A DNA stretch of 40,166 nt from Syntrophaceae bacterium. Lineage in GTDB: Bacteria > Desulfobacterota > Syntrophia > Syntrophales > PHBD01. Every line of letters starts with the position of its first letter. Position 1 is the first letter of the stretch. The position numbers were made by a program, and so were the translations under genes. Location: contig JABLXX010000014.1 of NCBI GenBank assembly GCA_013177825.1, forward strand, positions 1-40,166, given 5' to 3'. Below, piece by piece: positions 13,967 through 31,251 of this stretch. Below the pieces are notes generated by a model, which saw nothing but the letters and a program-made list of their open reading frames with translations, did no database searches and was not told the origin of the DNA.

Positions 13967-14659
13967 ATGGGAGCGAAGGAAAGACGGGAAAGGGAACGGG
14001 AGCAGCGAAAAAACGACATCCTGGATACGGCCAGGGCGCTGCTCTTCGAAAAGGGTCTCAACGCGACGACGATCAACCAGATCGCCAAGCGGGCGGAGCT
14101 GAGCGTCGGCACCATCTATTTCTACTACGACAGCAAGGAAGACCTCTACGCGACGCTTCAACTCGAGGGCCTGGAAATCCTGACCGGGATGATTCGGGAG
14201 GCCAGCGAGGCAGCGTCCGCAACGGAGGAAAAGATCCGGGCCATCGGTGCAGCCTACCTCCGGTTCAGCAAAGAGCACAGCAACTATTTCGAAATCATCA
14301 ACTACTTCCTGACCTCCCCGGAAACGATCTTTTCCCAGGACCTGAAATCGCGGGTCGACGGTCAGGGGACCCAGAGCATCTCCATCCTGGCCGAGGCCGT
14401 GGAGGAAGGAATACGGGCGGGCCTGTTCCAGGATGTGGATCCGAGACGGCAGGCGATCATTCTGTGGGGTACCCTTCACGGCATGCTTCACTTCAAGAAA
14501 CTGCAGAAAACGATCCTGGCCCATGCCGATCATGAAAGCATTTACATGGAAGCGGTGGAGCGTTTCATCGACGGGCTGCGCCTGCATCCGGCGCCCGTTG
14601 ACAGGATGAGCGACCCCAACCCTTTAGCGTCAAGGAGAAAGAGAAATGGCAAAATCTGA
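13967..14659 (+). CDS. TetR/AcrR-family transcriptional regulator
   Basis: The protein has 230 residues. Residues 1-20 are highly charged. The DNA-binding helix-turn-helix is at about 22-65, with [20 protein letters not shown] and the usual 'SKEDLYA' after it. The C-terminal two-thirds is helical and would hold the ligand pocket. It is the first gene of the sulfite reductase operon: its 3' end overlaps dsrA by 14 bases, so the two are co-transcribed. Known TetR proteins repress until a small ligand binds. A sulfonate, sulfite or acyl-CoA type ligand would make sense here, but nothing in the sequence identifies it. A candidate operator lies at 13896-13923. Confidence 0.88.
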
Positions 14660-15836
14660 AACACCCCTTCTGGATGAACTGGAAAAGGGAAAGTGGCCCA
14701 GTTTCGTCACGGAAATCAAGAAGGCGGCTGAAAAGAGCCCCATGGCGAAGGACCTCCTCCACCAACTGGAGCTTTCCTACAAGGACCGGATCGGTCACTG
14801 GAAACACGGGGGCATTGTCGGTGTCAAGGGCTACGGTTCCGGCGTCATCGGCCGGTATTCGGACCGTCCCGACCTCTTTCCGAACGTCCAGGCCTTTCAT
14901 ACCATCCGGGTGAACCATCCGTCCGGATGGTTCTACAAAACCGACGCCCTGCGCAGCCTGTGCGACATCTGGGACAAGCACGGCAGCGGTCTCACGAACA
15001 TGCATGGCTCCACGGGGGACGCCATCCTGCTGGGAACGACGACCGATCACCTGCAGACCTGTTTTGACGACCTGTCGGAGGCCGGGTTCGACCTGGGCGG
15101 CTCCGGGTCGGCACTCCGGACGCCGAGCTGCTGCGTCGGTCCCGGGCGCTGCGAATGGGCCTGCGTCGACAGCCTGGATCTCTGCCACCACCTGACAATG
15201 AATTTCCAGGACGAGATTCACCGGCCCATGTTCCCCTACAAGTTCAAGATCAAGATCTCCGCCTGTCCCAACGACTGCGTGGCCTCCATCGCCCGGGCCG
15301 ACTTTTCCGTCATCGGCACGTGGAAGGGCGACATCCGGATCGATCCGGCGGAAGTGGAGGCGTACGCCTCGTCGGGCCTCAACATCCAGAGGGAGGTCTG
15401 TGACCTGTGTCCCACGCGCTGCATGGAGTGGGACGGCCGGCAGCTCAAGATTTTCAACGAGGACTGCACGCGGTGCATGCACTGCATCAACCTGATGCCC
15501 AAAGCCCTGCGCCCCGGGGAAGAGCAGGGTGCCACCATCCTCGTCGGCGGCAAGGCCCCCATCGTGGAAGGGGCGCTCCTGTCCTGGGTCCTCGTGCCGT
15601 TCATGAAGCTGGAACCACCCTATGGAGAGATCAAGGACCTGATCCTCCGCATCCAGGACTGGTGGTGCGACAACGGCCGCTCCCGAGAGCGCCTGGGCGA
15701 GCTGATCAAGAGGCTCGGCATGCGGACGTTCCTCCGGGCGATCGACATCCCCGCGGCGCCGCAGATGGTCAAGGCCCCGAGAACGAATCCCTATGTCTTC
15801 TTCTGGCCCGAAGACATTCAGCAGGAGGTGAAGTGA
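14646..15836 (+). CDS. dsrA: Dissimilatory sulfite reductase alpha subunit
   Basis: With DsrB, this subunit forms the siroheme enzyme that reduces sulfite and hands the sulfur to DsrC. The 396-residue protein has both cysteine pairs that hold the siroheme-coupled 4Fe-4S cluster (CVGPGRC at about 160 and CPNDC at about 207). An inserted ferredoxin domain follows (CDLCPTRC, then CTRCMHC at 255-282). Other hallmarks are [27 protein letters not shown] and [11 protein letters not shown]. It is about 40 residues shorter than the Desulfovibrio protein: an N-terminal loop, a loop before the ferredoxin domain and the C-terminal tail are trimmed. The presence of DsrD and the absence of DsrEFH point to the reductive type. 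AAGGAG precedes the ATG. Confidence 0.97.
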
Positions 15837-15837
15837 G

Positions 15838-16896
15838 ATGGCTACCGATATCGGCCCCCCCGACTACAAAACCATGCTTCCTCCCGTCGTTCGGAGGAAC
15901 TACGGGAAATGGCTGTACCACGAAATCCTGAAGCCCGGCGTTCTCATGCACGTCGGAGAATCAGGAGAGGCGCTCTACACGGTCCGCGCCGGTTCGCCGC
16001 GCCTTCTCTCGACGGACACCCTCCGGGAGATCTGTGAAATCGCCGACAGCTACTGCGACGGCTACCTGCGCTTCACAAGCCGCCACAACATCGAGTTCCT
16101 GGTATCCGACCAGACGAAGGTGGAACCGCTCCTCCTGGAGCTCAACCGCATGAATTATTCCGTCGGCGGGACGGGGCACTCCATCTCGAACATCGTTCAC
16201 ACCCAGGGCTGGGTTCACTGCCACACGCCGGCCACGGACGCCTCCGGTCCCGTCAAGGCACTGATGGACGAGATCCACGAGTACTTCGTCACCATGACGC
16301 TGCCCGCCCATGTCCGGATCGCCCTGGCGTGCTGCCTCAACATGTGCGGCGCCGTCCACTGCTCGGACATCGCCATCCTCGGGATTCACCGCACGGTTCC
16401 GAAGCCCGACAATTCCCGGGTCCCCAACGTCTGCGAAATCCCGACAACGGTCGCCTCCTGCCCTACCGGCGCCATCCGCGGGGACATGAAGAACAAGACC
16501 GTCACGATCAACAACGACAAGTGCATGTACTGCGGGAACTGTTACACCGTCTGCCCGGCCATGCCGATCGCCGATCCGGACAACGACGGCATCTCCATCT
16601 GGGTGGGCGGAAAGGTCTCCAACGCCCGAAGCGCTCCCATGTTTTCGAAGCTGGCGATTCCCTACCTCCCCAACAATCCGCCCCGCTGGCCGGAGGTCGT
16701 CGACGCGGTGAAGAACATCATCGAGGTATACGCGGCCGGCGCCCGCAAGCACGAGCGGGTCGGCGAGTGGATCGAGCGCATCGGCTGGGAGCGGTTTTTC
16801 AGCCTGACGGGCATCCCCTTCACGGATAAGCACATCGACGATTTTGACATGGCCACGGAGACGTTCCGGTCGTCGATGCAGTTCAAATGGAGGTAA
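15838..16896 (+). CDS. dsrB: Dissimilatory sulfite reductase beta subunit
   Basis: The 352-residue partner of DsrA carries the catalytic siroheme site. The cluster-binding motif [13 protein letters not shown] occurs at about 161-173. Its ferredoxin domain shows [12 protein letters not shown] at about 222-233, followed by the well-conserved '[12 protein letters not shown]' segment. [16 protein letters not shown] is also typical. It starts one base after the dsrA stop, which implies translational coupling. Like DsrA it is somewhat shorter than the roughly 380 residues seen in Desulfovibrio. All cluster cysteines are present, so it should be active. Confidence 0.97.
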
Positions 16897-16898
16897 CC

Positions 16899-17123
16899 AT
16901 GGCGGAAGATCTGAAAGAGCGGGTCGTGGAGGCGTTCCGCGAGAAATCCAGGGGCGACAAAAAGATGTTCTACATCCGGGACGTGACGAAGTGGTTTCCC
17001 AACGAGGACCGGCACGCCGTCCAGAACGCCGTGAAGGCCCTGATCGAAGAGGACGCCCTGAAGTACTGGTCGAGCGGTTCCACGACCTACATCGTCCTGG
17101 CGGAATTCTTTACGGAAGGGTGA
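16899..17123 (+). CDS. dsrD: DsrD, sulfite reductase accessory protein
   Basis: A 74-residue winged-helix-type protein with the family hallmark LKYWSSGSTTYIVL at the C-terminus. DsrD is found in sulfite/sulfate reducers, is used as a marker of the reductive pathway, and is reported to stimulate DsrAB activity rather than bind DNA. The start at 16899 is preferred because GGAGG, formed by the last codons of dsrB, lies 5 bases ahead; an ATG at 16887 would overlap dsrB and precede that site. It follows dsrB by two bases, the classical dsrABD order. Confidence 0.93.
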   Translation: MAEDLKERVVEAFREKSRGDKKMFYIRDVTKWFPNEDRHAVQNAVKALIEEDALKYWSSGSTTYIVLAEFFTEG

Positions 17124-17133
17124 GCATCCGGCC

Positions 17134-18591
17134 ATGAAACCATCGATTCCGCGGCTGGTCATCGCCGCCCTCCGGGGAGGCGCCGGAAAAACGACACTCT
17201 CCGTGGGCGTCATCGCCGCCCTCTCGAAGCGGGGAGTCCGGGCCGTGCCCTTTAAAAAGGGACCGGACTACATCGATGCGGCATGGCTTTCCTTTGCCGC
17301 CGGCCGGCCCTGCCACAACCTCGATTCCTTTCTCATGGACCGGGAAACGATCCGGCGCTCCTTTTCCCGCCATGCCCTGGAAGGGGACCTGGCCTTCGTG
17401 GAGGGAAACCGGGGCCTCTACGACGGGATGGACGTCCGGGGCAGCCACAGCACGGCGGAACTGGCCAAGCTCCTGGACGCGCCCGTGGTCATGATCATGG
17501 ACTGCAACAAGGTGACCCGCACGGCGGCGGCGATGATCCTGGGCTGCTCCATCCTCGATCCGGACGTGGACATCCGGGGCGTCATCCTGAACCGGGTGGC
17601 TGGGACTCGCCATGAAGACATCCTCCGGCGGACCATCGAGGAGACCTGCCGGCTGCCCGTCCTGGGGGCCGTCCCCCGGATGAAGGATTTTCCCTTTCCG
17701 GAGCGTCATCTCGGGCTGACGCCGCCCCAGGAGCACGAGCGCATCCTGCATGCCCTGGACAGGGCGGCGGACGTGGCGGGCCGGTACATCGACCTGGACG
17801 GCCTGCTGGCTGTGGCACGCCGGGCGTCGTCCGGGACCGCCTCGGTGGGTGCCCGAACCGTCCGGCATCGCAGAGATTGTTCCGTGACCATCGGCGTCGT
17901 CCGGGATTCGGCCTTCCAGTTCTACTATCCGGAGAACCTTGCGGCCCTGGCCGAGAGAGGAGCGAAGGTTATCGAGATCAGCCCGCTCCGGGATGACTCG
18001 CTGCCGGATATCGACCTGCTTTACATTGGCGGGGGTTTCCCCGAGACACATGCGGAGGCCCTGACGGAGAACGAAGGCTTCCGGGCCTCGCTCCGCGAGG
18101 CGGCCGACGCAGGACTCCCCGTTTACGCCGAATGTGGTGGCCTGATGTACCTGGGGGAGAGTCTGGTTCTCGGCGACCGGACGTACCCCATGACGGGCGC
18201 CCTGCCTGTTTCCTTTGCCATGACCGACAAGCCCCAGGGGCACGGGTACACGGTTCTGGAAGTCGTGGAGGAAAATCCCTTCTTCCGGGTGGGAAGCAAC
18301 CTCAAGGGGCACGAGTTCCATCACTCCCGGATCCTTTCGATTGACCTTGAGCGGATCCGCTTTGCCTATCGTGTGAAGCGAGGCACCGGCGTCGACGGCC
18401 TGCGGGACGGCCTGTGCCGGAAGAACATCCTGGCAGGCTACACCCACCTGCATGCCTTGGGGACGAAGGAATGGGCAGTCGCACTGGTCGAGAGGGCGCG
18501 GGTGTGCCGCCAAGGCTGGAGCGATACGGTGCATTACAGAAAACCGATTGACAGCGTTCAGGAGATGCATCTCATCCCTGCACAGGAATAA
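17134..18591 (+). CDS. dsrN: Siroheme amidase / cobyrinate a,c-diamide synthase-like (DsrN)
   Basis: The enzyme has 485 residues and two domains. The N-terminal ATP-binding domain begins GGAGKTTLSVGV and contains KKGPDYID. The C-terminal glutamine amidotransferase domain has GGGFPETHAEAL, the nucleophilic cysteine in YAECGGLMYLG, and a late histidine-rich end (GHEFHHSR, GYTHLHALG). This is the CbiA/CobB fold. In dsr loci the homologue, DsrN, is believed to amidate siroheme to the siroamide cofactor of sulfite reductase. Its position between dsrD and dsrC makes that role much more likely than cobalamin synthesis. No other cobalamin gene is nearby. It begins 10 bases after dsrD. Confidence 0.88.
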   Translation: MKPSIPRLVIAALRGGAGKTTLSVGVIAALSKRGVRAVPFKKGPDYIDAAWLSFAAGRPCHNLDSFLMDRETIRRSFSRHALEGDLAFVEGNRGLYDGMDVRGSHSTAELAKLLDAPVVMIMDCNKVTRTAAAMILGCSILDPDVDIRGVILNRVAGTRHEDILRRTIEETCRLPVLGAVPRMKDFPFPERHLGLTPPQEHERILHALDRAADVAGRYIDLDGLLAVARRASSGTASVGARTVRHRRDCSVTIGVVRDSAFQFYYPENLAALAERGAKVIEISPLRDDSLPDIDLLYIGGGFPETHAEALTENEGFRASLREAADAGLPVYAECGGLMYLGESLVLGDRTYPMTGALPVSFAMTDKPQGHGYTVLEVVEENPFFRVGSNLKGHEFHHSRILSIDLERIRFAYRVKRGTGVDGLRDGLCRKNILAGYTHLHALGTKEWAVALVERARVCRQGWSDTVHYRKPIDSVQEMHLIPAQE

Positions 18592-18615
18592 CAAAATCAT
18601 TGGAGGTGACGGATC

Positions 18616-18936
18616 ATGCCGACCATCGAACTGGCGGGCAAAACCTACGAAGTGGACGAAGACGGGTTCCTTCAGGAACTGGACAAGTGGAGTGAGGAGT
18701 TCGCCCAGGCGTATGCGGGCGCGGAAGATATCGAGGGGACGCTCACGGAAGAGCACTGGAAGCTCATCCATTACCTGCGGAACTACTTTCAGCAGTTCGG
18801 CATCGCCCCGATGATCCGCAAGATGTGCAAGGACAACGGGCTCGACGTGAAGAAGCTCTACGAGCTCTTCCCGACAGGGCCGGCGAAGGGGGCGTGTAAG
18901 TTGGCCGGGCTCTCGAAACCCACCGGCTGCGTGTAG
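18616..18936 (+). CDS. dsrC: DsrC, sulfur-carrier protein of sulfite reduction
   Basis: This 106-residue protein has both essential C-terminal cysteines: C94 in KGACKLAG and C105 in the terminal TGCV, separated by ten residues. This is the diagnostic arm of true DsrC, as opposed to TusE-like proteins with only one. In sulfate/sulfite reducers DsrC takes up sulfur from DsrAB as a trisulfide between these cysteines, which the membrane DsrMK(JOP) complex then reduces. GGAGG sits ahead of the ATG. A 258-base gap with a repeat element follows before the membrane genes. Confidence 0.96.
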   Translation: MPTIELAGKTYEVDEDGFLQELDKWSEEFAQAYAGAEDIEGTLTEEHWKLIHYLRNYFQQFGIAPMIRKMCKDNGLDVKKLYELFPTGPAKGACKLAGLSKPTGCV

Positions 18937-18944
18937 CAGGCCCA

Positions 18945-19064
18945 GGCCGTTGAAAAGGGGCTGCCTGCTGCGTTGCCCTCATCCTGAGCCGCTCGACGTA
19001 CGAAAAAGTACGACTCGCGGCTCCGGATTTCGGGCGCCTTGCATTCAACCCCTTTTGAACGGCC
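18945..19064. repeat. 120-base palindromic extragenic repeat
   Basis: The outer arms GGCCGTTGAAAAGGGG (18945-18960) and CCCCTTTTGAACGGCC (19049-19064) pair at 15 of 16 positions. Inside is a second palindrome around 18984-19024: GAGCCGC with GCGGCTC and GTAC with GTAC around a GAAAAA loop. The structure fits a small non-autonomous mobile or REP/MITE-like element. It lies inside the operon between dsrC and the membrane genes and could form a large RNA hairpin that alters downstream expression. Confidence 0.65.
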
Positions 19065-19073
19065 TTTGACCGG

Positions 19074-19125
19074 GGCCTCGCTTCTCAGGGCTTGCGCGCC
19101 TTGCCTGCGGGCTTTTTGCGAGGCC
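19074..19125. repeat. Second inverted repeat after the palindromic element
   Basis: GGCCTCGC (19074-19081) and GCGAGGCC (19118-19125) are perfect 8-bp arms around 36 bases. It sits directly beside the larger palindrome and just before the ribosome binding region of the next gene. It may be part of the same mobile repeat or a hairpin controlling read-through. There is no T-run after it. Confidence 0.45.
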
Positions 19126-19194
19126 GTCGTCCCGGAGAGGGGCATCGGGGAATGAAGGCGGGCGTCGCTTTACGGTAGAAAGTAAGCGTGATCC

Positions 19195-20124
19195 ATGGGT
19201 TACTACGTTTTATCCTACGTGTGCATGGCCATGTTCGTCCTGGCGTCGGTGCGACTGGTTTACCGGCAGTGGACCCTTCCCCTGCATGTCCGCTGGGAAA
19301 TCTACCCGGTCCGGCACGAAACGACCGCCCGGGTGGCCTATGGCGGCTCCTACATGGAAGAGATCAACTGGTGGAGCCGTAAACGGGAGAGTTCCCTCGT
19401 CAACGAGCTCAAGTACATGGTGCCGGAGATCCTGTTCCTGAGGGGCTTGTGGAAGGCGAACAGAGGCCTCTGGCTGGCTTCCTTTCCCTTTCACTTCGGA
19501 TTGTACCTGATGATTGCAACCTTCGGGGGGCTCACGCTCCATGCGGCGCTCTCCCTGTGGGGGGCGCCGGTATCCGCCGGGGGCGGCCTGCTGCGATCCC
19601 TGCTGGACGGGTTTGTCGTCGCGGCGGGGTGGCTGGGCCTGGTCCTGGGATCCCTGGGCGGGCTGGCGCTCATGACGAAGCGTCTGCTTGACCGGGAGTG
19701 GCGGGATTATTCCTCTCCGGCCGACTTTTTCAACCTCGGATTCGTTCTCGCCTTTTTCCTCTCCGCCCTGGCGGCCGCGCTGGTTGTGGATCCGTGGTTC
19801 ACCGGCGCGAAAGGCTTCGTGTGCGGACTGCTGGCTGGCGGCGATGCGCCGCCCCGGACCGCGCTCGGGGCGCTCACCATCGTCCTGGGGTCGCTCCTGG
19901 TCGCCTGGATTCCGCTTACACACATGTCGCACATGTTCATGAAGTATTTTCTCTACCACCAGGTCAAGTGGGACGAGGCCCCGAACCGGCGCGGGGGAAG
20001 GATCGAAGCGGCCGTCAGGAAGAACCTGGATCTGAAGCCGACCTGGCAGGCGGCACACGTCAGGGCGGACGGATGCACGTCCTGGAAGGACATTGCGTCG
20101 TCCACCCCGGGTGAGACGAAATGA
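19195..20124 (+). CDS. NarI/TmcC-like membrane cytochrome b subunit (DsrM paralogue)
   Basis: The protein has 309 residues. A first helix spans about 3-21, then comes a cytoplasmic loop with PLHVRWEIYPVRHE and YGGSYMEEINWW, then four further hydrophobic helices. Histidines in SFPFHFG and PLTHMSHMFMKYFLYHQ are likely heme b ligands. It belongs to the nitrate reductase gamma / HdrE / TmcC type, not to canonical DsrM, which is the separate gene at 21756. By inference it passes electrons between menaquinone and the Fe-S partner encoded next. The ribosome binding site is weak, and the next gene overlaps it by four bases (ATGA), showing tight coupling. Confidence 0.75.
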   Translation: MGYYVLSYVCMAMFVLASVRLVYRQWTLPLHVRWEIYPVRHETTARVAYGGSYMEEINWWSRKRESSLVNELKYMVPEILFLRGLWKANRGLWLASFPFHFGLYLMIATFGGLTLHAALSLWGAPVSAGGGLLRSLLDGFVVAAGWLGLVLGSLGGLALMTKRLLDREWRDYSSPADFFNLGFVLAFFLSALAAALVVDPWFTGAKGFVCGLLAGGDAPPRTALGALTIVLGSLLVAWIPLTHMSHMFMKYFLYHQVKWDEAPNRRGGRIEAAVRKNLDLKPTWQAAHVRADGCTSWKDIASSTPGETK

Positions 20125-21734
20125 AGGCCGCCCGCAGACCCTCCGACCTGGCGGCGCGATCCGAGCGCCTCTGCCACATCGAGCCGGGAGACATGGTCCC
20201 GCTGCCTCCCCCGTACGAGGACTTCAACCGGGTGACCCTGCCGCTCCTGAAGCCGGAGAGGGTCAAGGGCATCGAGACCTCCCTCGACGACACGGTCGCC
20301 ATCGGCATCCCCAGGCCGGCAAGCCGGGAAGAGGAGGATCTGCTGGTTCGCAAGTTTCTCTCCGGATTGAAGAAACTCTTCGAGAAGAAGAACAACTGGA
20401 CGTTCCTGCAGCCCCTGCTCCTGTCCATGGAGCACTGCGCCCGTTGCCAGACCTGCGCCGACGCCTGTCCCGTGTACGAGATGAGCGGCAGGCAGGAAAT
20501 CTACCGGCCCATCTTCCGGTCGGAGGTGCTGCGCCGGATCTACCGGAAGTACGTGAAACCCGGCGGCAGGATTGCGGCGAAGTGGAACGGCGACATCGAC
20601 CTCAACTGGACGACCGTGGCCCGGCTTGCCGAGCTGTCGTACCGCTGCACCCTTTGCCGCCGCTGTGCCTCCGTCTGCCCGATCGGCGTCGATAACGGCC
20701 TCATCACGCACGAAATCCGCAAGCTGTTTTCGCAGGAGATGGGCATTGCCCCGAAGGAGCTCCACGAGAAGGGGACCGTTCAGCATCTCCGGGTCGGCTC
20801 CTCGACGGGGATGAACCCCCTGGCGGCCAAAGACAATGTCGAGTTCATCCAGGAGGAGATGGAGGAGATCGCCGGCTTCAAGGTCGAGATCCCCTGGGAC
20901 AGGGAAGGGGCGGACATCCTCCTGATTCACAACGCCGGGGAAATGCTGGCCTGGCCGGAGAATGTCGGCGCCTTTGCCATCCTCTTCCAGGCGGCCGGAC
21001 TCTCCTGGACTCTGTCGTCCGAGGCGGTGGGCTACGACGCCGTGAACTACGGGCTCTGGTACGACGACGTGCAGTTTTCCCGCGTTGCGGTGAAGCATGC
21101 CGATATCGCCCGGAGGTTGAACGTCCGGAAGATCGTCATGGGCGAGTGCGGCCACGCCCACAAGGCGCTGACCGTCACGGCCGACCGCCTGCTGACGGGC
21201 GATTTGAACGTTCCACGGGAGTCGGCCATGGTCACCCTGGCGGACATCGTCTCCAGCGGCCGGCTGTCCCTGAACCCCCGGAGGAATCCCTTTCCCGTGA
21301 CCCTGCACGATCCCTGCAACATGGTGCGGTCCATGGGGATCGTCGAGCCCCAGAGGCGCATTCTCCGGGCCGTCGCCCCGCGCTTCCGGGAGATGACGCC
21401 CCACGGCGTGGACAATTACTGCTGCGGCGGCGGTTCGGGCTTTGCCATCATGTCGGGTTACAATTTCGCCGACTGGCGGAATCTGGTCAGCTCCCGCCGG
21501 AAGTTCCTCCAGATCCTGGATGCCTTCGCGGATGAGCCGCCGGAAGCGCCGAAATATGTCTGCGCCCCCTGCTCCAACTGCAAGGGCGCCATCCGGGACA
21601 TGATCGGCTACTACCACGGGGAGGAGCGCAGCGGCCTTTATTACGGCGGGCTGGTGGAGCTGATTGTCAATGCCATGTCGGACATGAAGAAACCCATCAT
21701 TCAGTTCGACGGGAAATCGTCGTGGGAATCATGA
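20121..21734 (+). CDS. HdrD/TmcB-like Fe-S oxidoreductase (DsrK paralogue)
   Basis: The protein has 537 residues. Two 4Fe-4S binding motifs occur at about 110-120 (CARCQTCADACP) and 175-187 (CTLCRRCASVCP). The heterodisulfide-reductase catalytic cysteine region appears as LHDPCN, CCGGGSGF and CAPCSNC, the CCG-type motifs that hold the special catalytic cluster in HdrD, DsrK and TmcB. It differs throughout from the second copy at 22749, which is true DsrK. With the upstream cytochrome it would form a two-subunit quinone/thiol (disulfide or trisulfide) oxidoreductase. Placed right after dsrC, DsrC trisulfide or an alternative heterodisulfide is the obvious candidate substrate, by inference. Confidence 0.8.
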   Translation: MKAARRPSDLAARSERLCHIEPGDMVPLPPPYEDFNRVTLPLLKPERVKGIETSLDDTVAIGIPRPASREEEDLLVRKFLSGLKKLFEKKNNWTFLQPLLLSMEHCARCQTCADACPVYEMSGRQEIYRPIFRSEVLRRIYRKYVKPGGRIAAKWNGDIDLNWTTVARLAELSYRCTLCRRCASVCPIGVDNGLITHEIRKLFSQEMGIAPKELHEKGTVQHLRVGSSTGMNPLAAKDNVEFIQEEMEEIAGFKVEIPWDREGADILLIHNAGEMLAWPENVGAFAILFQAAGLSWTLSSEAVGYDAVNYGLWYDDVQFSRVAVKHADIARRLNVRKIVMGECGHAHKALTVTADRLLTGDLNVPRESAMVTLADIVSSGRLSLNPRRNPFPVTLHDPCNMVRSMGIVEPQRRILRAVAPRFREMTPHGVDNYCCGGGSGFAIMSGYNFADWRNLVSSRRKFLQILDAFADEPPEAPKYVCAPCSNCKGAIRDMIGYYHGEERSGLYYGGLVELIVNAMSDMKKPIIQFDGKSSWES

Positions 21735-21755
21735 GCGCGTGAGGCGGAATTCAAC

Positions 21756-22745: not shown

Positions 22746-22748
22746 CCT

Positions 22749-24350
22749 GTGTCGTCCCTGAAGATCCCCAAACCGGACGAGCTGATCAAAATCCAATACC
22801 GGCCGCCGAAGACCGCCTGGCAGGACACCCCCGTCGAGTTCCGTCCGGGCACCTGGAGCTATGCCGGCGCGGCGAAGAACCTGACCGCCCTGGGCCTCCC
22901 AAATCCGAGGGCCTGGCAGCCCGCCGACCTCGACTGGAAACTGCCCCCGGACTGGCGGGAGATCATCCTGGAAGGCATGAAGGAGCGTCTCGAAAAGTAC
23001 CGTTCCTTCCGGCTTTTCATGGACCTCTGCGTCCGCTGCGGCGCCTGCGCCGACAAGTGCCATTTCTACATCGGCACCGGCGATCCGAAGAACATGCCCG
23101 TCCTCCGGGCCGAGCTCCTGCGGTCGGTCTACCGCCGCTACTTCACCGAGTCGGGGAAGCGGTTCGGCAGGCTGGTGGGCGCCCGGGACCTGACGGTCGA
23201 TGTCCTGAAGGAGTGGTTCTACTACTTCTACCAGTGCACGGAGTGCCGCCGCTGTTCCGTCTTCTGTCCTTACGGCATCGACCAGGCGGAGATCACCATG
23301 ATGGGGCGCGAGCTGCTCGATCTCGTGGGCTGCAACATCAACTGGGTCGTCGAGCCGGCGGCCAACTGCTTCCGGACCGGAAACCACCTGGGCATCCAGC
23401 CCGGCGGCATCAAGGACATGCTCGAATTTCTCGCCGACGATATCGAGGACCGCACGGGGGTCCGCGTGGATATCCCCCTAAACCGGAAAGGCGCCGAGAT
23501 CCTCTTTGTCGCCCCATCGGGCGATTATTTTGCCGATCCGGGAACCTACACCTGCATGGGCTACCTGATGCTGTTCCACGAGATCGGGCTCGATTACACC
23601 ATGAGCACCTACGCCTCCGAGGGGGGCAATTTCGGTCTCTTCCACTCCCACGAAATGGTGAAGCGCCTGAACGCGAAAATCTATGCCGAGGCGAAGCGGC
23701 TGGGCGTCAAGTGGATCATCGGCGGCGAGTGCGGCCACATGTGGCGCGTCGTTAACCAGTACATGGACACGATGAACGGTCCCGCCGACTTCCTGGAAAT
23801 GCCCGTTTCTCCAATCACCGGCACCCGCTTTGAAAACGCCCGCGCCACGAAGATGGTCCACATCGCGGAGTTCACGGCCGACCTCATCGGAAACGGAAAG
23901 CTCCGGCTGGATCCGCGGCGCAACGATCACCTCCGGGTCACCTTTCACGACTCCTGCAATCCCGCCCGGGCCATGGGGATCCTGGAAGAGCCGCGCCACA
24001 TCATCCGCAGCGCCTGCAATGTCTTCCGGGAGATGGCCGAGGACACCATCCGGGAAAAGACCCTGTGCTGCGGCGCCGGGGCCGGACTGGGAAACGAGGA
24101 GAACTTCGAGATGCGGATGCGGGGCGGAATGCCCAGGGCCATGGCCGTTCGGGACGTGGTGGAAAAATTCGGCGTGAACCGTCTGGCCTGCATGTGCGCC
24201 ATCGACCGGGTCACCCTGACCTCGCTCATGGAGTACTGGGTGCCGCAGGTGAGCGTCATGGGCGTTCACGAACTCCTGGCCAATGCCCTGGTCATGAAAG
24301 GTGAGAAGGAGCGGACCACGGACCTGCGCGGAGACCCCTTGAGCCTATGA
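22749..24350 (+). CDS. dsrK: DsrK, catalytic Fe-S subunit of DsrMKJOP
   Basis: A 533-residue cytoplasmic-side subunit with a GTG start at 22749 preceded by AAGGAG. Ferredoxin-type motifs occur at about 95-105 (CVRCGACADKCH) and 161-172 (CTECRRCSVFCP). Downstream are DSCNPARAMGILEEPR, CCGAGAGLG and CMCAIDRVT, the DsrK version of the heterodisulfide reductase catalytic motif. In the known complex DsrK is thought to reduce the DsrC trisulfide and release sulfide. It starts four bases after dsrM ends and overlaps dsrJ by four bases. All cluster motifs are intact. Confidence 0.94.
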   Translation: MSSLKIPKPDELIKIQYRPPKTAWQDTPVEFRPGTWSYAGAAKNLTALGLPNPRAWQPADLDWKLPPDWREIILEGMKERLEKYRSFRLFMDLCVRCGACADKCHFYIGTGDPKNMPVLRAELLRSVYRRYFTESGKRFGRLVGARDLTVDVLKEWFYYFYQCTECRRCSVFCPYGIDQAEITMMGRELLDLVGCNINWVVEPAANCFRTGNHLGIQPGGIKDMLEFLADDIEDRTGVRVDIPLNRKGAEILFVAPSGDYFADPGTYTCMGYLMLFHEIGLDYTMSTYASEGGNFGLFHSHEMVKRLNAKIYAEAKRLGVKWIIGGECGHMWRVVNQYMDTMNGPADFLEMPVSPITGTRFENARATKMVHIAEFTADLIGNGKLRLDPRRNDHLRVTFHDSCNPARAMGILEEPRHIIRSACNVFREMAEDTIREKTLCCGAGAGLGNEENFEMRMRGGMPRAMAVRDVVEKFGVNRLACMCAIDRVTLTSLMEYWVPQVSVMGVHELLANALVMKGEKERTTDLRGDPLSL

Positions 24351-24751
24351 GACTCCATGGCAAGGCAATCATGTCAGCCGGAATTGCGGCCTTTGTTCTC
24401 CTGGTCACCTTTCCCCTCTGGTACGGCGGGGCGGGGAAGCCCTCTCCCCCGGATCTCCGCCTGGATACGCCGGCGATTCAAGAGCTTGGGGAAAAGCGCT
24501 GCGTGGAGGATACGGCCGTCATGCGCAGCCGCCATGTGCAGCTTCTGACCGCCTGGCGCGACGAAGCGGTCCGGAAAGGGAACCGCACATACACTGCGGC
24601 GGACGGGCGCCGTTTCGAGGCCAGCCTGTCCCGAACCTGTCTCCGGTGCCACAGCAACAAGGAGCAGTTTTGCGACCAATGCCATGATTATGCGGGCGCA
24701 AAGCCCGACTGCTTCCGCTGCCACGTGGCTCCCGGCGAGGTGGGAAAATGA
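24347..24751 (+). CDS. dsrJ: DsrJ, periplasmic triheme cytochrome c
   Basis: The protein has 134 residues. An N-terminal hydrophobic helix at about 7-24 acts as an uncleaved anchor or signal. Three CXXCH heme sites (CLRCH, CDQCH, CFRCH) lie between about residues 97 and 126. The upstream segment EKRCVEDTAVMRSRH holds the cysteine that in characterised DsrJ is an unusual heme iron ligand. DsrJ belongs to the periplasmic face of DsrMKJOP and may link it to soluble cytochromes. It overlaps dsrK and dsrO by four bases each. Confidence 0.93.
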   Translation: MRLHGKAIMSAGIAAFVLLVTFPLWYGGAGKPSPPDLRLDTPAIQELGEKRCVEDTAVMRSRHVQLLTAWRDEAVRKGNRTYTAADGRRFEASLSRTCLRCHSNKEQFCDQCHDYAGAKPDCFRCHVAPGEVGK

Positions 24752-25539
24752 GATCGAATCGCAGAGAATTCCTGAAAATTGCGGGAGTTTCCGCCCTCAC
24801 GCTGCTGGTGCCGGCCGTCCTCCCCCCGGTCCGGGCCGCGGGCAATCCCTCCGCTCCGGTCGCCGCCGCGCGGCAGGCATCGTCTCCCCTGCAGCCCCTG
24901 ACGGCCGGGCGCTGGGCCCTGGCGGTGGACCTGTCGAAATGCAGCGCCGACTGCACGGACTGCACCACCGCCTGCCACCAGGTTCACAATGTCCCCGCAT
25001 TGGGCAACCCTGGGCACGAGGTAAAATGGATCTGGCGGGAGCCGTTCCCCGCCGTTTTCCCCGGCGAGACGCATGCCTGGACCGGGGAATCCCTCCGCCG
25101 GATGCGCCCGCCCGTCCTGTGCAATCACTGCGCAAATCCGCCCTGCGTTCGGGTATGCCCCACCGGCGCCACGTTCCAGCGGCCCGACGGGATCGTCATG
25201 ATGGACTACCACCGCTGCATCGGCTGCAAGATCTGCCTGGCCGCCTGCCCCTACGGGGCGCGGAGCATCAACTTCCGGGATCCGCGGCCCTTCGTTCAGA
25301 AACTCAATCCCGATTATCCCACCCGGACCAAAGGGGTGATCGAAAAATGCAATTTCTGCGAGGAGCGCCTGGCCAGGGGGCTCGAACCTGCCTGCGTCGA
25401 GGCCTGCCGCCAAAAGGCCCTGGTCTTCGGCGACGTGGAGGATCCCCGCTCGGAGATCCGCCTGCTCCTCGAAAAGCGCGTTGCCCTGCGGCGCCGGGCG
25501 AGCCTGGGTACGCTGCCGCAGGTTTATTACCTTCTGTGA
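24748..25539 (+). CDS. dsrO: DsrO, periplasmic ferredoxin-like subunit
   Basis: The protein has 263 residues. A twin-arginine signal (NRREFLKIAG, then a hydrophobic stretch and a cut near VRAAG) shows export by Tat after folding. The mature part has four 4Fe-4S cluster motifs, including CSADCTDCTTACHQ, CNHCANPPCVRVCP, CIGCKICLAACP and CNFCEERLARG--PAC. This is the NrfC/DmsB-like type. In DsrMKJOP it transfers electrons between DsrJ and the membrane subunit DsrP. It lies in the conserved order J-O-P. Confidence 0.93.
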   Translation: MRSNRREFLKIAGVSALTLLVPAVLPPVRAAGNPSAPVAAARQASSPLQPLTAGRWALAVDLSKCSADCTDCTTACHQVHNVPALGNPGHEVKWIWREPFPAVFPGETHAWTGESLRRMRPPVLCNHCANPPCVRVCPTGATFQRPDGIVMMDYHRCIGCKICLAACPYGARSINFRDPRPFVQKLNPDYPTRTKGVIEKCNFCEERLARGLEPACVEACRQKALVFGDVEDPRSEIRLLLEKRVALRRRASLGTLPQVYYLL

Positions 25540-25546
25540 GGAAGCG

Positions 25547-26740
25547 ATGCTGGAGAAAGCCCTGACAGGCGGTCCCGGATACCGGGCATGGATGGCCTTC
25601 CTGCTGGCCGTATTCGCGACGGGCCTGTTTTTCTACCTGCGTCAGCTGGAACTCGGGCTGGGCGTCACGGGAATGAGCCGCGACGTGTCCTGGGGGCTCT
25701 ACATCGCCCAGTTCACGTTCCTGGTGGGCATCGCCGCGTCGGCCGTCATGCTGGTCCTGCCCTATTACCTGCACGACTACCAGGCCTTCGGAAAGATCAC
25801 CGTGCTGGGCGAGTTCCTGGCCGTCGCATCCGTCATCATGTGCGGGCTCTTCATTTTCGTCAACCTGGGGCAATCTCCCCGGGTTCTCTTCGTCATCCTG
25901 CACGCCCAGCCGAAATCGGTCCTCTTCTGGGACATGTTCGTCCTGAACGTTTACCTCGTTCTGAATATCATCACCGGGTGGACGGTCCTGGGCTGTGACC
26001 GGAAGGGCGTTCCCCCGCCCCGGTGGGTCAGGCCGCTGATCTATCTCTCCATTCCTTGGGCGATCAGCATCCACACCATGACGGCCTTCATCTACGCCGG
26101 TCTTCCCGGCCGGAGCTTCTGGCTGACGGCGCTCATGGCCCCGCGGTTTCTCGCCGCCGCCTTCGCCTCCGGCCCGGCGCTCCTGATCCTGATCTGCCTG
26201 GTCCTGAAGAAGTGGGCGGACTTCGATGCCGGGGAGAAGGCGATCCAGGCACTGGCCAGGATCGTCGCCTACGCCCTGGCCGTGAGTATTTTTTTCGTGC
26301 TGGTGGAGCTGTTCACCGTCTTCTATAGCGGCATTCCGGAGCACCAGGAGCACTTCCGCTATCTTTACGCCGGGATCGACGGGCACGGCAACCTGGTCCC
26401 CTGGATGTGGATGTCGGCCGTCCTGGCCGTGGGCGCGCTGGCGGCGCTGATCCATCCTCGCGCGCGGAAGAACGAACGCGTCCTGGCGGCGGCCTGTGCA
26501 GCCGTTTTTGCCGCCTTCTGGATCGAAAAGGGACTGGGGCTGGTCGTGACGGGCTTCGTCCCCTCGCCGCTCGGGTCCGTGACCGAATACGCGCCGACGG
26601 GGCCTGAGATCGCCGTCGCGCTCGGCGTCTGGGCCGCCGGATTCCTGGTCCTGAGCGTGCTGTACCGGGTTTTTGTCGCGGTTCGCCGGGAGGCCGGGTC
26701 CGTTGAACCGTCCGCTGAAGGTTTAAGGAACGGCCCATGA
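25547..26740 (+). CDS. dsrP: DsrP, NrfD-family membrane subunit
   Basis: A 397-residue integral membrane protein with about ten helices. It belongs to the NrfD/PsrC family, which exchanges electrons with menaquinol. Typical features are WGLYIAQFTFLVGIAASAVM near helix 2 and LGQSPRVLFVILHAQPKS. The ATG at 25547 is used (GAGGAAG before it) rather than an upstream ATG within dsrO. Its stop overlaps the ackA start codon (ATGA), so respiration and acetate kinase genes are directly coupled. With DsrM it gives the complex two quinone-reactive membrane subunits. Confidence 0.93.
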   Translation: MLEKALTGGPGYRAWMAFLLAVFATGLFFYLRQLELGLGVTGMSRDVSWGLYIAQFTFLVGIAASAVMLVLPYYLHDYQAFGKITVLGEFLAVASVIMCGLFIFVNLGQSPRVLFVILHAQPKSVLFWDMFVLNVYLVLNIITGWTVLGCDRKGVPPPRWVRPLIYLSIPWAISIHTMTAFIYAGLPGRSFWLTALMAPRFLAAAFASGPALLILICLVLKKWADFDAGEKAIQALARIVAYALAVSIFFVLVELFTVFYSGIPEHQEHFRYLYAGIDGHGNLVPWMWMSAVLAVGALAALIHPRARKNERVLAAACAAVFAAFWIEKGLGLVVTGFVPSPLGSVTEYAPTGPEIAVALGVWAAGFLVLSVLYRVFVAVRREAGSVEPSAEGLRNGP

Positions 26741-27990
26741 AGATCCTCGTCCTCAACTGCGGCAGCTCCTCCATCAAGTACAAGCTCTTCGACATGCCCG
26801 GGGAGCGGGTTCTCGCCCGCGGGCAGGCCGAGCGCGTGGGACGGGCCGATTCGGTCATCCGCCATGAAGTGGCGGGAAGGGATCCCTTCACGCGGGAACA
26901 GAGCCTGTCGGGTCACCGCGAGGCGGTCGATGTGCTGCTGAAGCATCTGATCGCGCCGGAAGGCGGCGTGCTGGCGGGCATTCGCGACATCGCCGGCGTG
27001 GGGCACCGCTTCGTTCACGGGGGGGAGTTCTTCCGCTCCTCCGTAGCGATCGATCCCGGGGTCCGGGAGACCCTGGAGGCCTGCCGGAACCTGGCGCCCC
27101 TCCACAATCCCCACAACCTGACGGGCATCGACGCCTGCATGGAGCTCATTCCCCATGCGCCGCAGGCGGCCGTCTTCGACACGGCCTTTCACCAGACCAT
27201 ACCGGACTATGCTTTCACCTGCGCCATTCCCTACCGGTTCTACGAGGAGAACCGCATCCGGAAATACGGATTTCACGGAACCTCCCACCGCTACGTCTCC
27301 TCCCGGGCGTCGGAGATTGTCGGAAAGGGGAGGGAAGGGCTGCGGATCGTCACCTGCCATCTCGGTAACGGGTCCAGCCTCTGTGCCGTCCGCGACGGGA
27401 AGTCGTGCGACACGACCATGGGGTTTACACCCCTGTCGGGCGTCGTCATGGGAACACGGTGCGGAGACATGGACCCGGCCTTGCCGGCCCATCTTGTCGA
27501 AACCCTGAATATCCCCCTGGCGGAGGTGATGTCGATCCTGAACCACGAAAGCGGCGTTCTCGGCATCTCCGGCCTTTCACCCGATTTCCGGGACCTGGAA
27601 TCGGCGGCTGACGGGGGGCATGCCCGGGCCCGGCTGGCTCTCACGGTCTACGCCTACAGCGTCGCCCGCGGGGTCGCCTCCCTAGTCCCGGCCATCGGCG
27701 GCCTCGACGCCCTTGTCTTTACGGCGGGCATCGGGGAGAATTCCCCGAGGATGCGAGAGCGGATCTGCGCGTATCTTGAGTGGCTGGGCGTGGCGCTGGA
27801 TGCGGAAAAGAACGAGCGGGGCGTTTCGGAGGCCGACGTGTCCCGGTCCGGGTCCCCGGTCCGGATTCTCGTCATCCCCACGGACGAGGAGCGGCTGATC
27901 GCCCGGGATACCGTGTCGGTCCTCGGGTTGGGCGAGGAAGCTCAGATTGGGAAACGGCAGCGGCTGCCCATGGAAGCCGTTGAAAAATAG
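26737..27990 (+). CDS. ackA: Acetate kinase
   Basis: This 417-residue cytoplasmic enzyme makes ATP and acetate from acetyl phosphate and ADP. Diagnostic segments are the N-terminal [14 protein letters not shown], the arginine in [18 protein letters not shown], the catalytic-histidine region [30 protein letters not shown] and the late [12 protein letters not shown]. Length is normal (about 400). It overlaps dsrP by four bases and precedes xsc by 31. No phosphate acetyltransferase is present here, so its acetyl phosphate most likely comes from Xsc next door. The arrangement implies substrate-level phosphorylation during sulfonate cleavage. Confidence 0.96.
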
Positions 27991-28021
27991 AAACAAAACC
28001 ACGCGAAACGGAGGTTTGGCG

Positions 28022-29761
28022 ATGAAAAAGGTAAAAATGACACCCAGCGAGGCGATCGTCGAGACGCTGCTGGCGGAAGGGGTGGACCACGTCTGCGGGA
28101 TCGTGGGATCGGCCTTCATGGACATGCTGGATCTTTTCCCGTCGGCGGGGATCCGGTTCATCCCCGTCCGGCACGAACAGAGCGCGGGCCACATGGAAGA
28201 CGCCTATGCGCGGATCACCGGCCGGGCCGGGGTCATCACCGGGCAGAACGGGCCCGGCATCACGAACATGGTGACGTCCGTGGCCGCGGCCAACATGGGC
28301 CACACGCCCCTGATCGTCATCTCCCCCTCGGCGGGGACGCCGACAATCGGCTGGGACGGCTTCCAGGAGTGCGACCAGGTGTCGGTCTTCAAGGCCATCA
28401 CCAAGGCGACGGTCCGGGTGCCCCATCCGAAACGGGCGGCGGACTGCCTGCGGACGGCCTTCCGGATCGCCTACGCCGAGCGGGGTGCCGTGCTGTACGA
28501 CATCCCCCGGGACTACTTCTACGGCGAGATCGAGGAGACCATCCTCAAGCCTTCCCAGTACCGCGTGGACGCCCGGGGATGCGGCTCCATGGAGAGCCTC
28601 GACCGGGCGGCGGCGCTCCTTGCCAAAGCGAAGAACCCCGTCATCGTCTCCGGCCGGGGGGTCGTCGACGCCGACGCCCTGGACGTCATCAAGGAAATCG
28701 CCGAGCACCTGACGGCGCCCGTGGCGGTCACCTACCTCCACAACGATGCCTTCTACGGCAATCACCCGCTCTCCGTCGGCCCAATCGGCTACATGGGATC
28801 GAAGGCGGCCATGAAGATCCTCTCGAAGGCGGACGTGGTCCTCGCCGTGGGGACGCGGCTCTCCGTGTTCGGCACGCTGCCCCAGTACGACATCAACTAC
28901 TTCCCCGACAAGGCGAAGATCATCCAGATCGACATCAACCCCAAGCATATCGCCCGCACCCATCCCATCGAGGTGGGCATCATCGGGGACGCCCGGGAGG
29001 CAACCGTCGAAATCCTGAAGCGCCTCAAGGGCACTGACAAAAACCGCAAGCCGGACTCGCGCCGCCTCGCCGCCGTGAAGAAGGAGAGGGACGCCTGGGA
29101 GAAGGAGATCGTAAAGGCCGCCATGGTCAAGGGGAATCCCGTCAACCCCCGGCGTGTCCTCCTGGAGATCTCGCGGGCCCTGCCGGACGACGCCATCGTC
29201 GCGACGGACATCGGGAACGTCTCCTCCACGGCGAACAGCTACCTGAAGTTCAACGGCGGCCGCCGGCACATCGCGGCCCTCACCTTCGGGAACACGGGAT
29301 TCGCCTATCCCGCCGCCCTGGGGGCGCAGCTGGCCCGTCCGAAGTCGCCGGTCATCGCCATTGTCGGCGACGGCGCCTGGGGGATGAGCCTCCACGAGGT
29401 CAGCACGGCCGTCGAGCACAACCTCCCCGTCGTGGCCTGCGTGTTCCGGAACATGTGGTGGGGCGCCGAGGCGAAGAACCAGATCGACTTCTACAACAAC
29501 CGCTTCTGCGGCGTGGACATCCCCAACCCGGAGAGCTTCGTCCCCGTGGCGAAGGCCATGGGCGCCGAGGGCATCCGCGTGGACCGGGTCGAGGACATCC
29601 GGGACGCCTTCGAGACGTGCATCAAAAGCCGGAAGCCCACCGTCCTGGAGTTTGTCGTGGACGGCACGCAGCTGGCGCCGCCGTTCCGGAAGGACGCCCT
29701 GGCCCTGCCGACGCGATTCCTCAAGAAGTACGATCACCTGGACTACCGGAACTGGGATTGA
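28022..29761 (+). CDS. xsc: Sulfoacetaldehyde acetyltransferase (Xsc)
   Basis: This ThDP and Mg enzyme of 579 residues converts sulfoacetaldehyde and phosphate to acetyl phosphate and sulfite, breaking the C-S bond. It closely follows the known Xsc pattern: [19 protein letters not shown] near the start, [17 protein letters not shown] with the cofactor glutamate, [57 protein letters not shown] and the Xsc-specific [16 protein letters not shown]. The start at 28022 has GGAGG ahead; the longer frame would overlap ackA. Its two products are exactly what AckA and DsrAB use. The other ThDP enzyme in the window lacks these Xsc features. Confidence 0.93.
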
Positions 29762-29788
29762 TGCCCCGCTTCGGCCTGCTATCGAACA

Positions 29789-29823
29789 GGGAAGCCACGC
29801 GCCCCGCCGGCGCGGGGCTTCCC
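29789..29823 (+). terminator. Strong GC-rich hairpin between xsc and the osmC-like gene
   Basis: GGGAAGCC (29789-29796) pairs with GGCTTCCC (29816-29823), and inner bases CGCGCC pair with GGCGCG, giving a two-part stem around a 5-base loop. There is no T-run, so it may be an attenuator or an RNA-stability element rather than a full terminator. It would lower expression of the osmC-like gene relative to xsc. Confidence 0.55.
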
Positions 29824-29863
29824 GTTCGGGATCCCGGCACCGGCATCGGAAAGGGTTTGATCC

Positions 29864-30355
29864 ATGGAAGAACAGCAGAATAACGATGTGAAGGCGCCCC
29901 TGGAGGGATACAAGAATTTTGCCCCGCCGCCCGTAAAAACGTCCCTGGTCTGGAACAGGGAGCTCCAGTTCACCGGTTCGACACCCCAGGGATACGATAT
30001 CGAGTTCGACTCCGACGGCCAGTGGGGCTGCAAGCCGACGGAGGCACTGCTCCTGAGCCTGGCCGGGTGCATGGCCATCGACGTCGTCATGATCCTGAAG
30101 AAGATGCGGGTGCGCCTTGCGGGGTTCCGGATGGAACTGACGGCGGAGAGGAACCCCACCCCGCCGCAGTATTTCCGGGCCGTGGCGATGGTACTCCATA
30201 TCGCCGGCCGGGACATCGATCCCCGCAAGGTCGACCGGGCCGTCGCCCTGTCGCATTCCACCTATTGCTCCGTTTACAATTCCCTCCGGAAGGACATGAC
30301 CGTCACGGTCCGCACCGTGATCGAGGACCGGGACGTCGAGGGCGAAGCTCCCTGA
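29864..30355 (+). CDS. OsmC-family protein
   Basis: This 163-residue protein has the OsmC/Ohr fold signatures: a first cysteine in LLSLAGCMAIDV at about 67 and a second in SHSTYCSVYNSL at about 136, the pair that forms the thiol peroxidase site in known members. It belongs to the YhfA-like branch rather than Ohr. Members reduce hydroperoxides or handle reactive thiol/sulfur species. It is the last plus-strand gene after xsc and lies 102 bases behind it with a hairpin between, so partial co-transcription is likely. In this setting a role with persulfides or sulfite-linked stress is possible, but unproven. Confidence 0.8.
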   Translation: MEEQQNNDVKAPLEGYKNFAPPPVKTSLVWNRELQFTGSTPQGYDIEFDSDGQWGCKPTEALLLSLAGCMAIDVVMILKKMRVRLAGFRMELTAERNPTPPQYFRAVAMVLHIAGRDIDPRKVDRAVALSHSTYCSVYNSLRKDMTVTVRTVIEDRDVEGEAP

Positions 30356-31238: not shown

Positions 31239-31251
31239 CTTTCCCTCTCCT

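Follow-up and report, generated by a model that had tools for sequence, protein, structure and literature searches.

The 40,166-bp contig JABLXX010000014.1 of a Syntrophaceae bacterium (GenBank assembly GCA_013177825.1) carries on one strand a row of dissimilatory sulfite reductase (dsr) genes that runs directly into the genes for acetate kinase (ackA) and sulfoacetaldehyde acetyltransferase (xsc). The entire contig (C14 of a genome of 4.24 Mb, completeness 100%, contamination 4.3%) is referred to below as the window. We consider it probable that this is a sulfonate-respiration locus with an Xsc-AckA-Dsr core. The same reading had been put forward in a first-pass annotation made from the letters of the DNA. 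The identity of Xsc, the linkage of dsr, ackA and xsc and the failure to find sulfate-activation genes support it in part; the single co-regulated operon that the annotation also inferred is a possibility only, and it left the supply of sulfoacetaldehyde open. As a source we discuss a four-gene module upstream of dsrA, encoding a short-chain dehydrogenase/reductase (SDR), a thiamine diphosphate (ThDP) enzyme, a major facilitator superfamily (MFS) transporter and a Zn-dependent alcohol dehydrogenase (ADH).

Core of the locus

Genes were identified by comparing NCBIfam and Pfam profile scores with curated cut-offs (figures are given as score/cut-off in bits). Twelve proteins of the locus scored over the cut-off: DsrA, DsrB, DsrC, DsrD, DsrN, DsrM, DsrK, DsrJ, DsrO, DsrP, AckA and Xsc. 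The protein encoded from 28022 is Xsc, as first annotated, both by profile (848/676 bits) and by tree, where it is nested among Xsc proteins. The reported spacing is likewise exact: ackA starts at 26737, overlapping dsrP (stop 26740) by 4 bp, and its stop at 27990 is 31 bp from the xsc start at 28022. Both genes lie downstream of dsrABDNC and of two DsrMK-type membrane sets on the same strand. The outer borders, on the other hand, need redrawing: position 13967, the quoted start, is where a TetR regulator begins (dsrA begins at 14646), and the quoted end, 29864-30355, is an OsmC-like gene under its family cut-off.

The core reactions are established chemistry of the families named; their operation here, including direction and substrates, is predicted from sequence. 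Xsc would convert sulfoacetaldehyde and phosphate to acetyl phosphate and sulfite, and AckA would use acetyl phosphate and ADP to form acetate and ATP. DsrAB, with DsrD, DsrC and DsrMKJOP, would then reduce sulfite to sulfide with 6[H], the electrons coming from the quinone pool.

The lack of sat and apr, noted earlier for the window, extends to the genome: no protein matched PF01747 (ATP sulfurylase) and none reached the AprA cut-off, the two AprA matches among the matches listed being far below it. The combination that marks a sulfate reducer, ATP sulfurylase plus AprA, was not found. Sulfate is presumably not used, given that no enzymes for its activation were found. As to pta, Pta/Ptb-like genes are present elsewhere in the genome, outside the window. 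The acetate-kinase family has three matches in the genome, of which the best lies on contig C7 in an open reading frame (ORF) also matching PduL-type phosphotransacylase and the weakest is butyrate-kinase-sized.

The full subunit set, together with a DsrC that has two C-terminal cysteines, as its C-terminus ACKLAGLSKPTGCV indicates, argues for a reductive Dsr system, with DsrD as a proxy for the reductive DsrAB branch. Most of the subunits are common to oxidative Dsr systems (PMC10591310, accessible, like the other papers cited here, in part; statements on each refer to that part), so that an oxidative direction, or else a role in sulfite detoxification only, could be envisaged. We regard either as highly improbable: DsrD is tied to reductive systems (PMC10591310), DsrMKJOP and the two-cysteine DsrC are present, and the genome has neither an ATP sulfurylase match nor an AprA over the cut-off.

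Recurrence among relatives

The first-pass annotation had suggested searching other genomes for ackA-xsc next to dsrP, and the linkage indeed recurs in many relatives. We used two surveys. The locus survey, based on one genome per species, found an Xsc relative at 136 loci and retained the best 80 of them (L numbers); 20 of the 80 are of Syntrophales type (L004-L022 and L028). The order survey covered 149 Syntrophales genomes (G numbers) drawn evenly from a larger group, with weak Xsc and AprA matches being those among the matches listed. The surveys are not independent (L004=G397, L015=G229, L016=G030, L019=G514, L022=G399, L028=G250).

Fourteen of the 20 Syntrophales-type loci carry dsr genes on the stretch examined; in three the stretch ends less than 1 kb upstream of xsc, and three more (L017, L019, L028) have no dsr in 3.2, 8 and 10 kb upstream. 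Over all 80 best loci, in which Xsc is present by construction, dsr genes occur in 17 and the ThDP enzyme in 25, while most loci, above all those of Bacillaceae, have neither on the stretch. Within the order, DsrA was over the cut-off in 38 of the 149 genomes, Xsc in 20 and AprA in one (without Xsc); incomplete Xsc sequences below the cut-off are found in at least five more (G067, G452, G474, G492, G497). DsrA is present in 17/20 Xsc genomes compared with 21/129 others (Fisher p 2e-9, treating genomes as independent and uncorrected for kinship, the 20 Xsc genomes representing six genera, five of them with both genes). In 13 of these 17 genomes the two genes share a contig and a strand and are separated by 12.1-15.2 kb. 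The other four (G229, G504, G509, G514) have them on different contigs, although the xsc contig of G229 (L015), counted here, begins inside dsrN. A scan of the phylum, used chiefly as a source of loci, returned Xsc over the cut-off in 30/395. G348, which lies outside the order, has the row dsrABDNC-M2-K2-dsrMKJOP-ackA-xsc with a DsrA 86% identical (M2 and K2 are described in Table 1).

The gene order of the same-genus genome G397 (L004, L138) is that of the window, SDR-ThDP-MFS-ADH-TetR-dsrABDNC-M2-K2-dsrMKJOP-ackA-xsc-osmC, and the 4-bp dsrP-ackA overlap is identical. In L015 and L016, ackA is within 20 bp of dsrP (matched ends), and in L007 xsc comes after dsrP with no ackA between. L005, L006, L009 and L013 have an FAD/rhodanese oxidoreductase gene inserted into the row. 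Such a gene, whose product is an FAD-dependent disulfide oxidoreductase carrying a rhodanese domain, was seen after dsrP in six relatives (L005:6930-8627 by profile; L006, L009, L011, L012 and L013 by likeness) and not in the window. The SDR-ThDP-MFS-ADH genes mostly lie 3' of xsc in loci that reach far enough; their placement before dsrA, as in the window, was seen in G397 and, without an ADH label, in G399. Between the Zn-dehydrogenase and TetR genes, a conserved protein of ~82-90 residues with no Pfam match is encoded in L016 (16756-17004) and nine loci besides.

History of Xsc and the taurine alternative

The Xsc tree has 77 rows, 74 of Xsc from the fetched loci and three of the outgroup; its long branches (L077, L082 and others) do not stand beside the window protein. 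That protein falls into a set of 25 rows (support 100/99) composed of Syntrophales rows and L091 from G348, outside the order. Xsc proteins of L045, L048 and L070, three loci with dsr genes within 10 kb, belong to a separate set (support 100/100) that unites Syntrophomonadaceae Xsc near dsr and Clostridia Xsc with AsrABC neighbours. In the latter, AsrA, AsrB and AsrC were over the cut-off in L058 and AsrB in L067 and L076, where only B was scored. Since the linked Xsc proteins are found in different sets of the tree, the linkage between Xsc and sulfite reductases has either arisen repeatedly or travelled.

The sister of the 25-row set consists of L023 and L024, two loci of Firmicutes that encode Ald, Tpa and Xsc consecutively (Tpa named by profile in L023, the remainder by eye). 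This position raises the possibility that taurine is the substrate, by way of an aminotransferase encoded elsewhere in the genome. A taurine-Xsc-AckA-Dsr route has been described for Taurinivorans muris (PMC10507020), and the genome has six class III aminotransferase-like matches. The best of them, however, reaches 356 bits against a cut-off of 488 for NF005812, a broad subfamily that holds the Firmicutes Tpa (549 bits in L023, 538 in L025), so that none of the six, nor any other protein of the genome, qualifies as Tpa, and there is no aminotransferase in the cluster. We therefore consider taurine an improbable substrate.

A candidate arm upstream of Xsc

By sequence and predicted fold, the ThDP enzyme is assigned to the benzaldehyde lyase/2-hydroxyacyl-CoA lyase (HACL) group of ThDP lyases. 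Searching solved structures with the single sequence yielded benzaldehyde lyase and formolase at 274 bits and HACL at 264; with a 25-row profile, HACL scored 405 bits and benzaldehyde lyase 369. The structural model (predicted local distance difference test, pLDDT, 83; predicted template modelling score, pTM, 0.87) is closest to HACL, benzaldehyde lyase and formolase, with oxalyl-CoA decarboxylase lower in the ranking (TM ~0.83). For the alignment, 40 loci were named and stop-free matches of at least 450 residues and 33% identity were kept, which 25 passed. Equivalents of benzaldehyde lyase His29, a residue linked to catalysis, Glu50 and Gln113 are kept in 26/26 chosen rows, and all 26 have Ile at the position of Thr481. 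Gln113 of benzaldehyde lyase is treated in PMC13327070, in which 2-oxoacid decarboxylases have His at this position in five of six cases and Leu in one.

All 20 Xsc genomes of the order have the ThDP enzyme (identity at least 77%). Its gene is less than 3 kb from xsc in 15 of them, 16-17 kb away in three, the window included, and on another contig in two. SDR homologues adjoin it in relatives. Nine Firmicutes loci encode a more distant homologue (34-39%) no more than 200 bp from xsc, and a tenth has one 6 kb away; the homologues of L045, L048 and L070 are near dsr, and those of L058, L067 and L076 near asrABC or asrB. In Firmicutes, the homologue beside xsc has a 3-hydroxyacyl-CoA-dehydrogenase-type protein as its partner (by profile in L048, L058 and L024), and an aldehyde:ferredoxin oxidoreductase is close by in L048 (Pfam) and L024 (sub-cut-off). 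In L058, L067, L076 and L074, xsc, the ThDP homologue and a dehydrogenase-type gene are consecutive; asr genes occur within ~5 kb in all of these but L074, which is a short contig.

We propose that the four-gene module feeds sulfoacetaldehyde to Xsc, on the ground that removing one carbon from a C3 substrate leaves the C2 compound required by Xsc; the case for such a lyase arm is evenly balanced. The MFS protein would import a C3 sulfonate, which the SDR and the Zn-dehydrogenase would oxidise. The favoured but still doubtful candidate is 2,3-dihydroxypropanesulfonate (DHPS), which would give a ketone or aldehyde and 2[H]. The ThDP lyase would then remove one carbon, giving sulfoacetaldehyde and formaldehyde, or formyl-CoA if the substrate were a CoA ester, and the C1 unit would be oxidised to CO2 with release of 4[H]. 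DHPS would balance without an outside electron donor, since the 6[H] from the arm equal the requirement of Dsr, the sum being DHPS -> acetate + CO2 + H2S + H2O. Taken together, dehydrogenases and a benzaldehyde-lyase/HACL-type lyase leading from DHPS or a similar compound to sulfoacetaldehyde, followed by Xsc, AckA and Dsr (AsrABC in certain Clostridia), would make up a new anaerobic C3-sulfonate route. We put this forward tentatively, as something rather short of an even chance. If true, it would be a C3-sulfonate route without HpsN, ComDE, an aminotransferase or a glycyl radical enzyme, present in Syntrophales and several Firmicutes.

The genes of other routes to or around sulfoacetaldehyde were sought in the genome. 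Its one PF00815 gene, a candidate for HpsN, is HisD by profile (TIGR00069, 508/244 bits), and ComDE was rejected in that no ComE scored over the cut-off (best 45/221.5 bits). Among glycyl radical enzymes, the sole pyruvate formate-lyase (PFL)-like gene is under the cut-offs of the sulfonate-cleaving kinds (HpfG 543/1000, HpsG 464/1000 bits), and no IslA model is among its profile matches. It is nearest to glycerol/diol dehydratases, the best match in the PDB being glycerol dehydratase with 550 bits, against 322 bits for IslA.

With the same core, the ThDP enzyme might instead be a single-chain sulfopyruvate decarboxylase, the SDR and ADH oxidising both sulfolactate enantiomers to sulfopyruvate. 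This would follow the known logic of SlcD or SlcC/ComC - ComDE - Xsc (PMC11382572) and agrees with the want of a ComE-type protein over the cut-off in the genome; the dehydrogenase-type partner in Firmicutes, judged by its presumed function, could act on sulfolactate. Yet the nearest solved relatives of the ThDP enzyme are lyases, with oxalyl-CoA decarboxylases close behind, and it has Gln where most 2-oxoacid decarboxylases have His (PMC13327070). In addition, the aldehyde oxidoreductase near the ThDP homologue of some loci would be left without a role. We consider sulfopyruvate decarboxylation unlikely.

Observations of several kinds weigh against the sulfonate-respiration locus and its lyase arm. 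With regard to the core, three Xsc genomes, all of one genus, are without DsrA, three Smithella drafts have been reported without dsr (PMC4208337), and G514 has a dsr-ackA-SDR-lyase row with xsc on another contig. The gene row of the window may also be split between dsrC and the membrane genes, as discussed below for the hairpin in this gap. With regard to the arm, the model falls below pLDDT 50 at residues ~104-112, the loop holding the Gln, and G348 (L137) has dsr-ackA-xsc without the ThDP enzyme in the 19.9 kb read (2.2 kb beyond xsc). Moreover, the SDR and Zn-dehydrogenase share the Pfam families of HpsO and HpsP, yet are only 30-35% identical to two plasmid-borne sets, whose HpsOP status was read from gene order: SDR 32-33% and ADH 30% for the hisD-SDR-ADH-comDE set of a Leisingera plasmid, SDR 35% and ADH 30% for that of a Klebsiella plasmid. 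Such identities are insufficient to show orthology, and the two dehydrogenases are at most candidate HpsO and HpsP. The best identities found in plasmid searches were 41% for the SDR, 34% for the ADH and 37% for the ThDP enzyme. Finally, the ThDP enzyme (identity at least 66%) is present in 31 of the 129 Syntrophales genomes that have no Xsc over the cut-off, four of the 31 holding incomplete Xsc; this rules it out as a specific marker of the Xsc pathway.

The last point also favours a reading of SDR-ThDP-MFS-ADH as an unrelated catabolic module, whose substrate might for instance be a hydroxyketone or hydroxyacid free of sulfur and which merely neighbours the sulfonate genes. At 12 such sites read in genomes without Xsc over the cut-off, no xsc was labelled, an SDR was alongside in ten, and other transporters are present. 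By eye, those accompanying the SDR-ThDP pair are DASS-, SBF- or TauE-like, and in L149, L150, L152 and L158 the pair comes with aldehyde oxidoreductase-like genes. Because of these oxidoreductase-like genes and other transporters, the SDR-ThDP module probably has another use in genomes without Xsc. For the window, however, an unrelated module seems to us somewhat unlikely, given that the ThDP enzyme is found in 20/20 Xsc genomes, within 18 kb of xsc in 18 of them, that distant homologues stand by xsc in ten Firmicutes loci and that G514 retains the enzyme behind dsrP-ackA. The row of G514 (L144, L145, L146, L019) reads dsr-ackA-SDR-ThDP-MFS-ADH, and its xsc (85%), on another contig, has genes for a class III aminotransferase and for an MFS protein nearby.

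Transcription units and neighbouring genes

Between dsrC and the membrane genes there is a gap of 258 bp with a very stable hairpin of ~140 nt. Its letters are almost unchanged in the same-genus locus L138 (from 11171), where the stretch 3' of the hairpin differs, and two exact hairpin patterns matched L004 and L138 only among 164 loci. A search of Rfam at the hairpin gave no match, and promoter and terminator scans gave counts close to those of shuffled sequence. The hairpin is a possible transcription boundary; with the gap and a hairpin of such strength, two transcription units are therefore possible.

The features are collected in Table 1. M2 and K2 (19195-21734) form a second, divergent DsrM/DsrK-like pair, which stands before dsrMKJOP in Syntrophales loci. 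A pair of this type precedes dsrAB in L045 and L048 (33% and 55% identity), and the pair at the same site in L138, of the same genus, is divergent (25% and 32% identity). The MFS protein has no NCBIfam model at the cut-off among the matches listed (best 25). Farther out, two adjacent proteins with C-terminal 4Fe-4S domains and a weak likeness to EFR1 ferredoxin are encoded on the minus strand at 30390-32088, the one at 31252 having 93% identity within the genus, and the product of 2012-3043, also on the minus strand, carries a PEP-CTERM sorting domain (TIGR02595, 24/16 bits). A CoA-transferase gene (6352-7923) was discarded as a conserved part of the locus, none being found beside Xsc in 113 loci scanned.

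Table 1. Features of the window, with profile scores (score/cut-off in bits where both are given) or other grounds for each
Feature	Coordinates	Strand	Basis and remarks
SDR dehydrogenase, proposed sulfonate dehydrogenase	8464..9342	+	PF13561, 191 bits; ATG at 8506 likelier start
ThDP enzyme, benzaldehyde lyase/HACL group, candidate for release of sulfoacetaldehyde + C1	9458..11152	+	structure, tree and residue comparisons
MFS transporter, proposed sulfonate uptake	11225..12523	+	PF07690, 190 bits
Zn-dependent alcohol dehydrogenase	12571..13593	+	PF08240 + PF00107; homologue beside MFS in relatives
TetR-family regulator	13967..14659	+	PF00440, 59 bits; 14-bp overlap with dsrA start
dsrA	14646..15836	+	TIGR02064, 566/393
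dsrB	15838..16896	+	TIGR02066, 524/342
dsrD	16899..17123	+	PF08679, 62/24
dsrN, CobB-type a,c-diamide synthase	17134..18591	+	TIGR00379, 470/261
dsrC (DsrC/TusE)	18616..18936	+	TIGR03342, 112/53.5
Long hairpin, dsrC-M2 gap	18938..19080	+	-79.6 kcal/mol, z -7.4
M2, DsrM/TmcC-like membrane subunit	19195..20124	+	sub-cut-off NCBIfam matches, no Pfam; precedes K2 in relatives
K2, second DsrK-like protein	20121..21734	+	NF045796, 342/400 (under cut-off)
dsrM	21756..22745	+	NF038037, 434/300
dsrK	22749..24350	+	NF045796, 726/400
dsrJ	24347..24751	+	NF038038, 147/100
dsrO	24748..25539	+	NF045797, 293/200
dsrP	25547..26740	+	NF045798, 457/350; match starts at residue 23 of longer ORF 25481-26740
ackA, acetate kinase	26737..27990	+	TIGR00016, 450/293; PF00871, 443 bits
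xsc, sulfoacetaldehyde acetyltransferase	28022..29761	+	TIGR03457, 848/676; tree
OsmC-like protein, membership of the system unsure	29864..30355	+	NF008009, 73/138; kept in same-genus genome

Significance and comparison with known systems

Syntrophales are known mainly as syntrophs of methanogenic, sulfate-scarce places. The origin of sulfite in this order is a real question, because 37 of the 38 DsrA genomes have no AprA over the cut-off; the DsrAB 'uncultured family-level lineage 6' has been placed in Syntrophales (PMC10591310). For 17 of the 38, the locus described here offers a concrete source of sulfite, namely sulfonates. Sulfonate respiration would thereby enter a mainly syntrophic group, and the source of sulfide there could be tested. 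The lyase arm, if true, would be a new way of feeding Xsc.

The core has close counterparts. In Taurinivorans muris (Tpa-Ald-Xsc, AckA, DsrAB-DsrC), sulfoacetaldehyde is likewise cleaved by Xsc, ATP is formed by AckA and sulfite is respired by Dsr (PMC10507020). Its sulfoacetaldehyde, however, comes from taurine by Tpa, whereas the window genome has no Tpa over the cut-off and the window has the SDR/ThDP-enzyme/ADH/MFS module instead. In the isethionate respiration of Bilophila and Desulfovibrio (IslA = IseG), sulfite from an organosulfonate is likewise passed to Dsr without sulfate activation (PMC6453916, PMC10507020), but the C-S bond is cleaved by a glycyl radical enzyme, and the only such enzyme of the window genome is glycerol/diol-dehydratase-like. 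With the aerobic DHPS pathway HpsNOP-SlcD-ComDE-Xsc (PMC11382572), the window has in common Xsc and the SDR, Zn-dehydrogenase and MFS families (HpsO, HpsP, HpsU). It differs in that the genome has no HpsN, its one HisD-family gene being HisD by profile, and no ComE over the cut-off, with a ThDP lyase-type enzyme standing in their place. That enzyme shares fold, ThDP domains and the His-Glu-Gln residues with benzaldehyde lyase, formolase and 2-hydroxyacyl-CoA lyase, at ~25-34% identity; no sulfonate substrate for these enzymes is named in the accessible parts of the literature found.

The first-pass annotation knew of no described locus with xsc and ackA embedded in a full dsr operon. As far as the gene order is concerned this still holds: among the matches listed in the literature search, whose scope was papers other than subscription papers and preprints, the accessible text describes neither xsc and ackA inside a dsr row nor an Xsc-linked ThDP lyase of the window type, the accessible part of PMC10507020 has no statement that the two genes of T. 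muris lie in a dsr row, and xsc is absent in the Acidobacteria of PMC6018796. The Xsc-AckA-DsrAB route itself, on the contrary, has already been published for T. muris (PMC10507020). The core of the pathway is of a known kind; being merged into a dsr row and linked to a ThDP module makes this conserved locus a new form of it.

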